From a virus, in the IMG/VR virus record IMGVR_UViG_3300042317_000038, positions 1 through 27,387 of that record: a stretch of 27,387 nucleotides of DNA; one strand, 5' to 3'. A program made the position numbers and the translations under genes. Below are positions 1-5,484 of the stretch, in pieces; the stretch's first letter is position 1, and each line of letters starts with the position of its first letter. Below the pieces are notes generated by a model that was not told the DNA's origin, searched no databases, and was given only the letters and a program-made list of their open reading frames with translations.

Positions 1-364
1 TAGGGTGGTTCATGGGGCGTGATTGTCGCCCCGTAGCCGGCGTCAATGTCACCTCGTTAGCGACAGACTTACGCCGCGGCATATTGTCGCCCCGTAACCG
101 TGACAAAATTATCGTGTAACGGTTGGGTCTTCGGTCATCACGACAATCAGCAGAACCACCGGCCCGCTTTTCCAACCGGACATATCCATGCTTAACCAGC
201 GTGTTCACCGAGCGTTGAACTGTGCGCACACTTATTGAACACTTCATAGCGATTGTCGCTTGGCTTGGCCATGCTTCAGTACCGTCATCGCTCGCGTGGT
301 CAGCGATAACAAGCAAAACCATTTTTTCAGTTGTCGGTAAGTTTGTTTTCCATACTTCCGTCAT
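1..364 (-). CDS. Winged-helix replication-initiator-like protein, 3' end cut by window edge
   Basis: An open frame begins at ATG 364 and runs off the left edge, giving 121 codons without a stop. Residues 14-62 read like the helix-turn-helix of phage replication initiators and RepA/DnaD-type proteins (HTH_36-like): LLVIADHASDDG (17-28), then AWPSQATIA (31-39) and SVRTVQRSVNTLVKHGYV (45-62), followed by a GG turn (69-70) and RPNRYTI (79-85), which resembles the wing. The residues after about 90 are basic and low in hydrophobics, like the linker between a DNA-binding domain and a helicase-loader domain. It overlaps the end of the WhiB-like gene by 38 bp, and no strong ribosome site is visible. 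The family resemblance is by eye; a transcriptional regulator with the same fold is the main alternative. The C-terminal part is not in the window. Confidence 0.72.
   Translation of the reverse strand, partial: MTEVWKTNLPTTEKMVLLVIADHASDDGTEAWPSQATIAMKCSISVRTVQRSVNTLVKHGYVRLEKRAGGSADCRDDRRPNRYTIILSRLRGDNMPRRKSVANEVTLTPATGRQSRPMNHP
14..96. repeat. 14-bp direct repeats and GC hairpin inside the initiator-like gene
   Basis: ATTGTCGCCCCGTA occurs exactly at 22-35 and 83-96 (61 bp apart). The core ATTGTCGC recurs at 252-259, and ATTGTCG occurs on the other strand near 142-148. The first copy also forms an inverted repeat, GGGGCG (14-19) with CGCCCC (27-32) around a 7-nt loop. The two copies lie in different reading frames of the gene, so the repeat is not explained by a protein repeat. 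Iterons within the initiator gene are a known phage origin arrangement (lambda O), so an origin is possible here; this is inference. Confidence 0.5.
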
Positions 365-701
365 TACGCGAATACTCATAGGCCTCCCAAATAGTGTCGT
401 AGGTTATGCCATACTCCTCTAAATCAAAAAGAGCGCGCCTCAATTGAGCCGGATATTTTTTAGGCTCCACTATGGCTTTCCGCTCAAGAGTGGTCATGCC
501 ACCCCAAACTCCATATTGCTCATGACCGAATCCATACGCTAAACAATCGCGTTGAATTGGACACCTTCCACAGATACTTCGCACCGCGTTTATGTACATA
601 TAAGCCCGGACATTCCGTTCTTCTTCCACGGCGTAAAATAAATCTGTATTGAGTCCCCAACATTCGGCTTTATCCCAATCTACTTGTTCGTACCGGGGCA
701 A
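327..701 (-). CDS. WhiB-like Fe-S transcriptional regulator
   Basis: The 124-residue product has the four-cysteine signature of WhiB proteins: C14, then C44-x2-C47-x5-C53. These ligate a [4Fe-4S] cluster. GVWGG (64-68) matches the family's G[VI]WGG turn and is followed by a basic segment and a long C-terminal extension. WhiB proteins bind the sigma factor or DNA and regulate actinobacterial genes; phage copies such as TM4 WhiBTM4 interfere with host WhiB2. The start is a TTG codon at 701, supported by AGGAG seven bases upstream; no in-frame ATG precedes the first cysteine. It overlaps the Cas4-like gene upstream by 22 bp and the initiator-like gene downstream by 38 bp. It is the best evidence for an actinobacterial host. 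Confidence 0.93.
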   Translation of the reverse strand: MPRYEQVDWDKAECWGLNTDLFYAVEEERNVRAYMYINAVRSICGRCPIQRDCLAYGFGHEQYGVWGGMTTLERKAIVEPKKYPAQLRRALFDLEEYGITYDTIWEAYEYSRNDGSMENKLTDN

Positions 702-3131: not shown

Positions 3132-3362
3132 ATGGCCAACCCACCTCAAATACCACAGAACCCTCACCCAAACGCGAGAGTCGTTTTGAGCCTTCATCAG
3201 TTGTATATTGAAATTGAACATGAAGCGATTTATCCTGACCAAATAACTGACATGGCCAGCCGAGCCTATGATTTGTTTGTCAATTCGCTTGTGGCCTCTA
3301 AAGAAGCCGGCATGGATATTCGTAGGACTCCTGACTTTGAGTGGGACGAGGACGAGGATTAA
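3132..3362 (+). CDS. Lone rightward gene, small acidic-tailed protein
   Basis: This is the only plus-strand gene I accept. The 76-residue product has a normal, soluble, amphipathic composition (segments ARVVLSLHQLYIEIEHEA and ITDMASRAYDLFVNSLVAS) and ends in a very acidic tail (FEWDEDED). No coding candidate on the minus strand of this interval looks like a protein. Its stop overlaps the stop of the leftward gene at 3359-3361. No clear ribosome site is visible, only AGG about 15 bases upstream. It could be a regulator or a small inhibitor with an acidic, DNA-mimic-like tail, but I recognise no family. Confidence 0.55.
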   Translation: MANPPQIPQNPHPNARVVLSLHQLYIEIEHEAIYPDQITDMASRAYDLFVNSLVASKEAGMDIRRTPDFEWDEDED

Positions 3363-3592
3363 ATTTTCTGTTTGTGTTCGTCACAAACACAAGTACATGG
3401 AACCGGATAAGCCGCTCTCATTTGAGTCCTGAGCATGCGGGTCATTTGATACGCGTCCAAGGCGATTTCAGCCCAATCAACTAGAGCCTCTGCGGCATAC
3501 GGCTCCTTAGTCATTTCTGCTATTGCGTTGATTGCTCTACCTCTGCGTTCAACTTGTTTTTCAATAGCCTCTTGGAATTGTTCTTTGGTCAT
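3359..3592 (-). CDS. Small helical protein with Cys-rich C-terminus, unknown
   Basis: ATG 3592 has AAAGGAG six bases upstream and overlaps the previous stop as TAATG; an ATG 39 bp further upstream lacks such support. The 77-residue product is helical over most of its length (EQFQEAIEKQVERRGRAINA, then an acidic and hydrophobic helix) and ends in PVPCTCVCDEHKQKI, a short cysteine/histidine cluster that might bind metal. It is the last gene of the leftward run that meets the opposing gene at 3132-3362. Confidence 0.75.
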   Translation of the reverse strand: MTKEQFQEAIEKQVERRGRAINAIAEMTKEPYAAEALVDWAEIALDAYQMTRMLRTQMRAAYPVPCTCVCDEHKQKI

Positions 3593-3669
3593 TAGTAACT
3601 CCTTTGAATACATTCGTAGCACATTCCACATTCACATTGGTACTTAGGCTTCTTGATTTTTTTGGTCAT
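3592..3669 (-). CDS. 25-residue Cys-rich microprotein
   Basis: A 25-codon frame begins with ATG 3669 inside the stop of the upstream gene (TAATG) and ends with TAA that overlaps the ATG of the next gene (again TAATG). The product starts with a lysine-rich stretch and carries C12, C14, C17 and C20 (CECGMCYEC). Its own stop region contains the AAAGGAG ribosome site of the next gene. Perfect coupling on both sides and a metal-site-like cysteine pattern support a translated gene rather than chance, but it could be mainly a translational bridge. Confidence 0.55.
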   Translation of the reverse strand: MTKKIKKPKYQCECGMCYECIQRSY

Positions 3670-4073
3670 TAGTCCAACCGCCCTTCTGCTGTTGCGTTAA
3701 TTCCCCAACCGCGTAGAACTACTGCGAACGCTTCAGCCGCGGCCATTTTGCGCTCGTATGATTGTCCAAAATTACAACCAGTTTCACGCTCAATAGCGTT
3801 CGTGGATATTTCGTATCCGCCGTAGTAACCCTTGTGACCAACTCCGCGGGCCTTGAGCCATTGAACAAATCCACCGCGGGCCGGCCGGATTGTCACCCAA
3901 GCAAAACCGCATGGACCTTCCATAATCACACTTGGGGCTTCAAGAGGTGTGCCGTCAAGGTCTACACGGACAACGCCCATAGGTGTCGGCGTCATATCTT
4001 TGCCGGCGTTCATCGCTTTTCCGCATGCGTAAATCCACAAGTCAAGCGCTGTGGTTGTAGGTGCTAATGTCAT
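3669..4073 (-). CDS. Conserved-looking hypothetical protein
   Basis: ATG 4073 (GGAAGG nine bases upstream) is preferred over ATG 4142, which would add 23 basic residues covering the leader. The 134-residue product has a mixed alpha/beta composition: an N-terminal segment (TTALDLWIYACGKAMNAG), a beta-rich middle (VVRVDLDGTPLEAP...CGFAWVTIRP), a Gly-rich stretch with YYGGYE, and a C-terminal helix containing RKMAAAEAFAVVLRGWG. I do not recognise a family. It precedes and is coupled to the 25-residue microprotein. Confidence 0.75.
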   Translation of the reverse strand: MTLAPTTTALDLWIYACGKAMNAGKDMTPTPMGVVRVDLDGTPLEAPSVIMEGPCGFAWVTIRPARGGFVQWLKARGVGHKGYYGGYEISTNAIERETGCNFGQSYERKMAAAEAFAVVLRGWGINATAEGRLD

Positions 4074-4088
4074 TTTGTACCGCCTTCC

Positions 4089-4101
4089 GGGCCTGTGGCC
4101 C
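4089..4101 (-). other. Small hairpin before the gene at 4073
   Basis: On the minus strand GGGCC-ACA-GGCCC ends right next to the GGAAGG ribosome site of the gene starting at 4073. It could modulate translation initiation. The 87-bp leader (4074-4160) also has TTGTAT, 17 bases, TACTCT, which is only a weak promoter candidate. Confidence 0.3.
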
Positions 4102-4160
4102 CTAGTTGTTCTTAGAGTAAACCCACCGGCAGACAAATACAAGCATTTGACAAACTTTTT

Positions 4161-4265
4161 TTAATTTATTTTGTGATGTCCGTTACGCTCAACGATTGCG
4201 ACATCTACATTGTCGTCAATATTGTTTTCATGTTCAAGAGTACAGTTGCCACATTGAATACACAT
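4161..4265 (-). CDS. 34-residue Cys-containing microprotein
   Basis: ATG 4265 overlaps the TAA of the upstream gene (TAATG). The frame runs 34 codons to TAA at 4161-4163. The product has an N-terminal CxxCxxC (C2, C5, C8: CIQCGNC) followed by an acidic, Asn-rich middle (EHENNIDDNVDVAI) and a basic tail with HHK. The N-terminal motif resembles one knuckle of a zinc ribbon. It closes the run of coupled genes that starts at 5953. Existence is supported by position and composition only. Confidence 0.5.
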   Translation of the reverse strand: MCIQCGNCTLEHENNIDDNVDVAIVERNGHHKIN

Positions 4266-4447
4266 TAGATACTCCACCACCCGCGAATCGTTCCCCCAAG
4301 AGGACAAACATTCCAATCAGCCTTACCGTCTGCTATCCATTGTTTATGAAGTTGCGTTTGAAATGTGAAATCAGGTTCATGAGTATTGCGCCCACAATCA
4401 GGACATAGTGGAGCATTGACATACTCGTAAACATGCCGGCAATACAT
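4265..4447 (-). CDS. Small zinc-ribbon-like protein
   Basis: The 60-residue protein has C3, C15-x2-C18 (CPDCG) and C48, plus several Trp and His residues (H5, H23, H34), and ends in GGTIRGWWSI. The CPDCG knuckle is typical of zinc ribbons. ATG 4447 overlaps the metallophosphoesterase stop as TAATG, and its own stop overlaps the next start the same way. A role in nucleic-acid or protein binding is possible; no specific family is recognised. Confidence 0.72.
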   Translation of the reverse strand: MYCRHVYEYVNAPLCPDCGRNTHEPDFTFQTQLHKQWIADGKADWNVCPLGGTIRGWWSI

Positions 4448-5484
4448 TAGTCAAGCCAAATCTTGTACGCGGCTGTGACGCGACCTTTCTGCGGGTCTAC
4501 GAAATGTAAACGCTGTGAAGGTGTTGCGCTCGCGGCCAACATAACACCGGCATAACGATTATCAGACTCCGTTGAACCGGTTTGATAAACAGAACCTAAA
4601 CCGTTTGCCATAGGCCATTCAGCGTGAGTGTGATAATGGCCAATATAGACATCACGGAAATCCCAATCGTAAGCACCGGAGCGCCAGCGGTTTGCGTGTT
4701 GAACTATCTGCCCGGGTGAAGCGAATCCGTTGCGACCAACTTCGTCACCGTGAATCAACAAGGCTTTGTAATTGCCTATCTGTACTCGTTGAATATCCTC
4801 AGGGGAATCGTTCCATGTCAATCGTTTTTCATTGGCCAATAATTGCCGGGCCAACTCGTAACACATACGGTCAAAGTTATCTGACCGGGGAACTGAATCG
4901 CGCTTACTACCAATACGGCCGTGATTTCCCCATTCCGCTACGACCTCAACTTTTTCATAATGACGCAACGCGTACCTAACGACATCTACGGCTAGTCTTG
5001 ACACATTTACATATTGCTCAAAGAGTGTGGAATCTATTTCAAATACTTGGCTTGGGAAATTAAACAAACCCTCAATCATGTCCCCGCCGAACATAATCGT
5101 ACAATTTTTAACCGGGTGGTCTGCCCGGTGGATTTCTGTAATGCGTACAGCCTTTTCCGCAAACGACATGACTCGTTTTTTCATGATTGTTGAGTCATAA
5201 GTAGTTGTCCGTTTGGCCCCTTGCCAATCCGTCATGTGCCACAAGGCAACCTCAGGTTTTCCTTTGACACCTTTTGCCACCTTGAATTCTTCAACTGGTT
5301 TGATTTCGCCCATAGACAACATCGCGTCATAGGCAGATTGTTTAGTGACCTCAACTAATTCTTCGTTGCGCTCCTTGGCTTTCTTGAGTTGCTTTTGTAA
5401 CCGGATAACGGCTTGTTGTAATTCTTTTAGATTTTCACTCTTGAGTTCATCAGGAGTTTCATCAAATTGGTCTTTGAGTGTCAT
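4447..5484 (-). CDS. Metallophosphoesterase with N-terminal coiled coil
   Basis: ATG 5484 overlaps the upstream stop as ATGA. The 345-residue product begins with a coiled coil (about 12-48), then a calcineurin-like phosphoesterase domain: D86 (HMTDWQ, 83-88), GGD (133-135), GNHG (186-189), HGD (245-247) and GHYHTH (282-287), the expected metal-binding blocks in order. The first block has Q88 where the classical DxH motif has histidine, a variant to note. Such phage enzymes cleave phosphodiesters or phosphomonoesters (nuclease of the SbcD/Mre11 type, or nucleotide phosphatases); the substrate cannot be told from sequence. The neighbourhood of recombination genes favours DNA processing, as inference. 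Confidence 0.87.
   Translation of the reverse strand: MTLKDQFDETPDELKSENLKELQQAVIRLQKQLKKAKERNEELVEVTKQSAYDAMLSMGEIKPVEEFKVAKGVKGKPEVALWHMTDWQGAKRTTTYDSTIMKKRVMSFAEKAVRITEIHRADHPVKNCTIMFGGDMIEGLFNFPSQVFEIDSTLFEQYVNVSRLAVDVVRYALRHYEKVEVVAEWGNHGRIGSKRDSVPRSDNFDRMCYELARQLLANEKRLTWNDSPEDIQRVQIGNYKALLIHGDEVGRNGFASPGQIVQHANRWRSGAYDWDFRDVYIGHYHTHAEWPMANGLGSVYQTGSTESDNRYAGVMLAASATPSQRLHFVDPQKGRVTAAYKIWLD

Follow-up and report, generated by a model that had tools for sequence, protein, structure and literature searches.

A conserved CCCH microprotein family in phages of aquatic actinobacteria

Among described systems, those closest to the microprotein considered here are the bacterial 2[4Fe-4S] ferredoxin loop and ferredoxin maquettes (PF00037, PF14697), the N-terminal nickel site of E. 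coli HypB and the WhiB/Wbl proteins. In the first, a short self-contained loop has C-x2-C-G-x-C spacing with a conserved glycine, and a 16-mer maquette (KLCEGGCIACGACGGW, CxxCGxC) suffices to hold a [4Fe-4S] cluster (PMC10946529). HypB carries Cys-x2-Cys-Gly at its extreme N-terminus, a motif that binds Ni(II) with a subpicomolar Kd (PMC7055735). WhiB/Wbl proteins have a cysteine metal site and are restricted to actinobacteria and their phages, WhiB having been cited by Kavagutti et al. as a key indicator of actinophages (PMC10202952). In addition, metagenomes have yielded predictions of small phage gene families (Fremin et al. 2022, as cited in PMC11323111).

The stretch of DNA analysed here, hereafter the window, is a complete IMG/VR record of 27,387 bases. 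Since it encodes a WhiB-like transcription factor (327-701, minus strand; PF02467, E 7e-14), an actinophage marker, its source is taken to be an actinophage. At 4161-4265 on the minus strand lies a 34-aa frame (MCIQCGNCTLEHENNIDDNVDVAIVERNGHHKIN) in which CxxCxxC is followed by x3-H, with the codons for C2, C5, G6, C8 and H12 at 4230-4262. Judging from the sequences of the frame and its relatives, it is a functional gene in a large, previously unnamed phage microprotein family, referred to here as CCCH. The family shares the spacing, the glycine and the short self-contained loop of ferredoxins, but its members are microproteins with an invariant histidine as the presumed fourth ligand, and they lack the CP motif, the second loop and the ferredoxin fold. 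A classical 4Fe-4S ferredoxin was rejected because the fourth cysteine (CxxxCP) is absent and position 12 is a histidine; the window member scores 14.2 bits against PF14697, for which the cut-off is 35. A zinc ribbon was set aside as well, the 34-aa family having one C-x2-C-x2-C-x3-H cluster and not two CxxC knuckles. With WhiB/Wbl proteins the microprotein shares a cysteine metal site (predicted in its case), the restriction to actinobacteria and their phages, and occurrence in the same phages, but it differs in cysteine spacing and size, and PF02467 was absent from the families matched by 73 CCCH members. PHROGs and PADLOC gave no match, the latter result speaking against a defence or counter-defence family, and Pfam and NCBIfam gave nothing near a curated cut-off. 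The family is unnamed in these four libraries, which assign it no function. It falls into the same general class as the catalogue of Fremin et al., as far as that is described in PMC11323111, namely small phage genes missed by annotation, and with millions of small phage genes predicted (PMC11323111), an unnamed family is no surprise in itself. More remarkable are how strongly this one is conserved and how unrelated the phages are in which it occurs.

Gene order and coding status in the window

Leftward from a metallophosphoesterase gene of the exonuclease family (4447-5484, minus strand; phrog_284, E 4e-41; 523 IMG/VR relatives), the first-pass annotation had described a chain of successively coupled genes for small cysteine-rich proteins. 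The four TAATG couplings are exact, all on the minus strand: the phosphoesterase gene is joined to a 60-aa gene at 4447 and the latter to the 34-aa frame at 4265, and a 134-aa gene is joined to a 25-aa frame at 3669 and the latter to a 77-aa gene at 3592. Both short coupled frames bear the cysteine patterns claimed for them, CxxCxxC in the 34-aa frame and CxCxxCxxC in the 25-aa frame (3592-3669, minus strand; MTKKIKKPKYQCECGMCYECIQRSY; CxCGxCxxC), and their neighbours do contain cysteine pairs. These lie in the 60-aa protein (4265-4447, minus strand) among C3, H5, C15, C18 and H23 (CRHxYE...CPDCG..THE...GWWSI; alignment A6), and in the 77-aa protein (3359-3592, minus strand; C-terminal end CTCVCDEHKQKI) at the C-terminus (PCTCVCDEHKQKI). 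The chain is broken, however, 3' of the 34-aa stop by an 87-base gap and the 134-aa gene (3669-4073, minus strand; phrog_22149, E 1.2e-7), whose product is of unknown function, has no cysteine cluster and has relatives at L005, L028, L039 and L059; the four cysteine proteins therefore form two pairs and not one run. Convergent with the 77-aa gene is a gene for a 76-aa protein (3132-3362, plus strand) with a beta-hairpin, a long helix and an acidic tail. Coupled frames of 20-40 codons with these cysteine patterns were counted in sequences resampled from the window by a first-order Markov model; the chance expectation was 0.08 such frames per window, and two or more arose in 4 of the 300 runs. 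The window has two.

The nearest relatives of the window, L001 and L002, came from an IMG/VR scan with the phosphoesterase. In an alignment with them, the 87-base noncoding spacer (4074-4160, minus strand) is nearly identical in all three, though the flanking genes differ, and its GGGGCC-ACA-GGCCC hairpin precedes the ribosome-binding site of the 134-aa gene; this spacer looks regulatory.

Both tiny frames have an excess of synonymous over nonsynonymous changes: the 34-aa frame differs from that of L002 at 8 of 18 synonymous and 4 of 84 nonsynonymous sites (P = 7e-5), and the 25-aa frame from that of L001 at 8 of 10.5 synonymous and 5 of 64.5 nonsynonymous sites (P = 3e-6). Loss of either frame by frameshift or stop in close relatives had been named beforehand as counting against the frames, and on this point the outcome is mixed, each frame being missing from one close relative but neither showing such decay: the alignment shows that a clean 79-base deletion removed the 34-aa frame from L001, and a 92-aa gene takes the place of the 25-aa gene in L002. 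Since codon selection acts on both frames and yet each is missing from one of these relatives, they are coding but accessory. The second gene, that of 25 aa, is young and specific to its lineage, with no IMG/VR member beyond the window and L001 (84% identical), and relatives of the 77-aa protein were found in L001 and L002 only. Between the genes for the 134-aa and 77-aa proteins the content is hypervariable: the 25-aa gene stands alone in the window, a 61-aa cysteine-rich gene accompanies it in L001, and the 92-aa gene takes its place in L002.

By the spread of its 181 IMG/VR relatives, the 60-aa protein is a separate widespread phage family, which has no library match at cut-off. Among the best 80 of these 181 loci (L254-L333), only 2 have the microprotein nearby. 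Of 29 records checked for this family, 21 have WhiB, and none of the 29 contains a convincing microprotein (there are two weak matches, to the helix part only), so the presence of WhiB does not imply that of the microprotein. Cysteine-poor versions of the 60-aa family follow the 76-aa gene in L013, L015, L023 and L025.

The idea of a single four-protein metal module tied to the phosphoesterase and an annealing gene did not hold, since the 34-aa family lies mostly elsewhere, with other neighbours and often on the opposite strand, and the distributions of the 60-aa, 77-aa, 25-aa and 34-aa proteins differ. From the earlier metal-protein reading, the part that survives is that both tiny frames, by codon selection, encode proteins; the conserved four-gene module does not.

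Conservation and distribution of the CCCH family

The first homologues of the 34-aa frame were found in relatives of the window, on the opposite strand and coupled to a homologue of the 76-aa gene. Members are as a rule 27-35 residues long, with the consensus MCKxCGxCSKEHxRTIDDAVDxxLDSPI. In IMG/VR, at least 119 stretches matched a degenerate DNA pattern in which only M, C2, C5, G6, C8, E/Q11, H12 and D17 were specified, and together with earlier members these gave at least 105 distinct proteins (window copy and a match in a bacterial MAG included), 75 of them of 30 residues or fewer. Positions that this pattern left free are conserved among the matches listed, with T/S15 in 89%, D/E18 in 100%, A/S19 in 89%, V/I20 in 93% and D21 in 98%. 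A second pattern that specified no cysteine codons recovered C2, C5 and C8 together in 87 of the 88 distinct proteins among the matches listed, so that a CxxCxxC loop of the Fer4 type is present. Scans of IMG/VR for a residue other than histidine at position 12 (first codon base A, G or T, which includes cysteine) or other than glycine at position 6 (first codon base A, C or T) found zero matches; these scans held the remaining motif fixed and are blind to substitutions that share the excluded first codon base.

Purifying selection on the family is strong: across 56 independent pairs pN/pS is 0.207 (P = 5e-70), and it is 0.363 (P = 1e-24) over the codons left free in the first pattern, with values near or above 1 in shifted frames. 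The C-termini mostly read ...SPI or ...ASI, the copy in the window lacking a hydrophobic C-terminus; a mimic of the SSB C-terminus was rejected, as F is the last residue in only 3 of the 75 short members. In the AlphaFold2 model of the 34-aa protein, which has low confidence (pLDDT 64, pTM 0.24), a helix spans residues 16-27.

The carriers are unrelated phages of aquatic actinobacteria, and the family is restricted to actinophages. WhiB is encoded in 37 of 40 IMG/VR records with the CCCH microprotein (record sizes 17-125 kb), and in a control of 14 genomes WhiB was positive in Corynebacterium glutamicum only. A tblastn search of 50,697 GenBank phages gave no convincing CCCH match. The first pattern had two matches in 257 Gb of genomes from bacteria and archaea. 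One is genuine and comes from an Actinomycetota MAG, where it lies on a phage-like contig that has the gene order of the window; the other, whose surroundings bear no resemblance to the family, was judged to be due to chance. The microprotein gene is present in 24 of 39 phosphoesterase records, many of which are fragments, and is single-copy in those that have it; this incidence and the clean deletion in L001 indicate that some phages, at least, can do without it. Common gene finders such as Prodigal have a minimum of 90 bases, and most CCCH members, at 27-29 codons, are at or under it, which is why such a conserved gene has gone unnamed so far.

Candidate roles and ligand-less homologues

We favour, with a probability of roughly 0.5, the reading that the CCCH microproteins are a mobile, single-copy family of aquatic actinophages in which one metal site stabilises a helix that docks on a partner, the microprotein serving as an adaptor or inhibitor. 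The N-terminal twelve residues (C2-x2-C5-G6-x-C8-x2-E11-H12) would provide this site from three thiolates and one imidazole, which fits the invariance of C2, C5, C8 and H12 within eleven residues, and structural zinc is a likelier occupant than an iron-sulphur cluster. The site would cap and stabilise a short acidic amphipathic helix, T15-[IVL]-D17-D-[AS]-[VI]-D21, usually terminated by a hydrophobic C-terminal residue, and during infection this helix may dock on a protein partner, the microprotein acting as a small adaptor or inhibitor and not as an enzyme. A host protein is the likelier target, because the carriers are unrelated phages that share only the type of host.

Thirteen homologous loci (L019, L022, L024, L027, L032, L037, L038, L043, L045, L048, L051, L053 and L070) occupy the same coupled position and have lost C2, C5 and H12 together while keeping the G-x-C-[ST]-x-E and LDDAxD parts, with the consensus MKNDGDCTKExxPSLDDAxDxWDNLGF. 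The joint disappearance of these residues from an otherwise retained sequence is expected if one site scaffolds the helix, and it favours an adaptor over a redox role; if this clade is functional, its retention of the second half suggests that the metal is the scaffold and the acidic helix the working part. In the ligand-less clade, the sign of purifying selection is no more than suggestive (P = 0.06 with independent pairs, not significant), and for this reason the clade could be decaying.

The best of the alternatives, which we consider unlikely, is a natural miniature ferredoxin, in which the C-x2-C-G-x-C loop and His12 as fourth ligand would hold a [4Fe-4S] cluster in a redox or oxygen sensor or an electron carrier. 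An iron-sulphur site is a serious rival because the weak similarities of the family are mostly to 4Fe-4S loops (Fer4_21 in 4 of 73 members, best E 0.0039; FdxA, 0.015) and because 16-residue CxxCGxC peptides bind such clusters; the equal cysteine spacing and the glycine after the second cysteine point the same way. Furthermore, in large phages bearing WhiB (L117, L142, L098, L105, L111, L145 and L136), a gene for a KatG-type peroxidase, acyl-ACP desaturase, AhpC, glutathione peroxidase or IscA-like protein lies within about 4 kb of the microprotein, which places redox and Fe-S genes in its vicinity. Nevertheless, all of these library matches are far under curated cut-offs, a profile search of the PDB gave only chance-level matches, cysteine at position 12 occurred in no IMG/VR match when the remaining motif was fixed, and the retention of the remaining sequence in ligand-less homologues would be incompatible with a redox role.

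Ranked next, and also rather unlikely, is an adaptor directed at a protein of the phage itself, in which the microprotein would form a complex with the small protein encoded by the coupled upstream gene. The CCCH microprotein is usually a coupled second cistron, the upstream stop being in TAATG or TGATG register at 70 of 121 CCCH loci among the matches listed, and it has two main upstream partners: at 45 loci the 76-aa protein, which is the customary first cistron in related phages, and at others a small protein with a basic tail that is unrelated to the first. The 76-aa family has an invariant Y34-P35-D36 (alignment A5), and its confident model (pLDDT 81) had no convincing structural match in the PDB or among viral models. 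A complex with this protein would agree with the arrangement at its 116 homologues, 70 of which have the CCCH microprotein immediately downstream, a further 13 the ligand-less form, and the other 33 neither of the two. However, a second large group is coupled to the basic-tailed protein (32 of 108 upstream genes), and in the window the microprotein is separated from the 76-aa gene, on the other strand, having joined the phosphoesterase operon instead, which indicates that the gene moves between partners. In L005 and L008, the microprotein also directly follows the phosphoesterase.

A metal chaperone or sequestering peptide, comparable to the N-terminal nickel site of HypB, is improbable. The position of Cys-x2-Cys-Gly at the extreme N-terminus is common to both, but HypB has CxxCGC, whereas the third cysteine is one residue further throughout the CCCH family (CxxCGxC), His12 and the acidic helix are without counterpart in HypB, and the microprotein has no GTPase domain; a HypB nickel site as such was therefore rejected. 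Finally, it is very improbable that the frame is no gene at all but conserved regulatory DNA or RNA, open by accident, an idea prompted by a short frame often found at gene junctions, given that purifying selection at the codon level is confined to the named frame and that the same peptide recurs amid unrelated DNA contexts on either strand.

Beyond the adaptor or inhibitor reading favoured here, a broader proposal is possible, though clearly tentative: the microprotein, of about 28 residues, may be pan-actinophage and among the smallest conserved phage metalloprotein families, capturing a shared host factor (for example, RNA polymerase or the Fe-S/WhiB pathway) and spreading between unrelated phages as a self-contained mini-gene. 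This hitherto unnamed gene is conserved in phages that differ greatly from one another and whose hosts are among the most abundant freshwater bacteria, and its invariant CCCH residues lead to clear predictions. Its target, if in the host, would mark a weak spot of aquatic actinobacteria.
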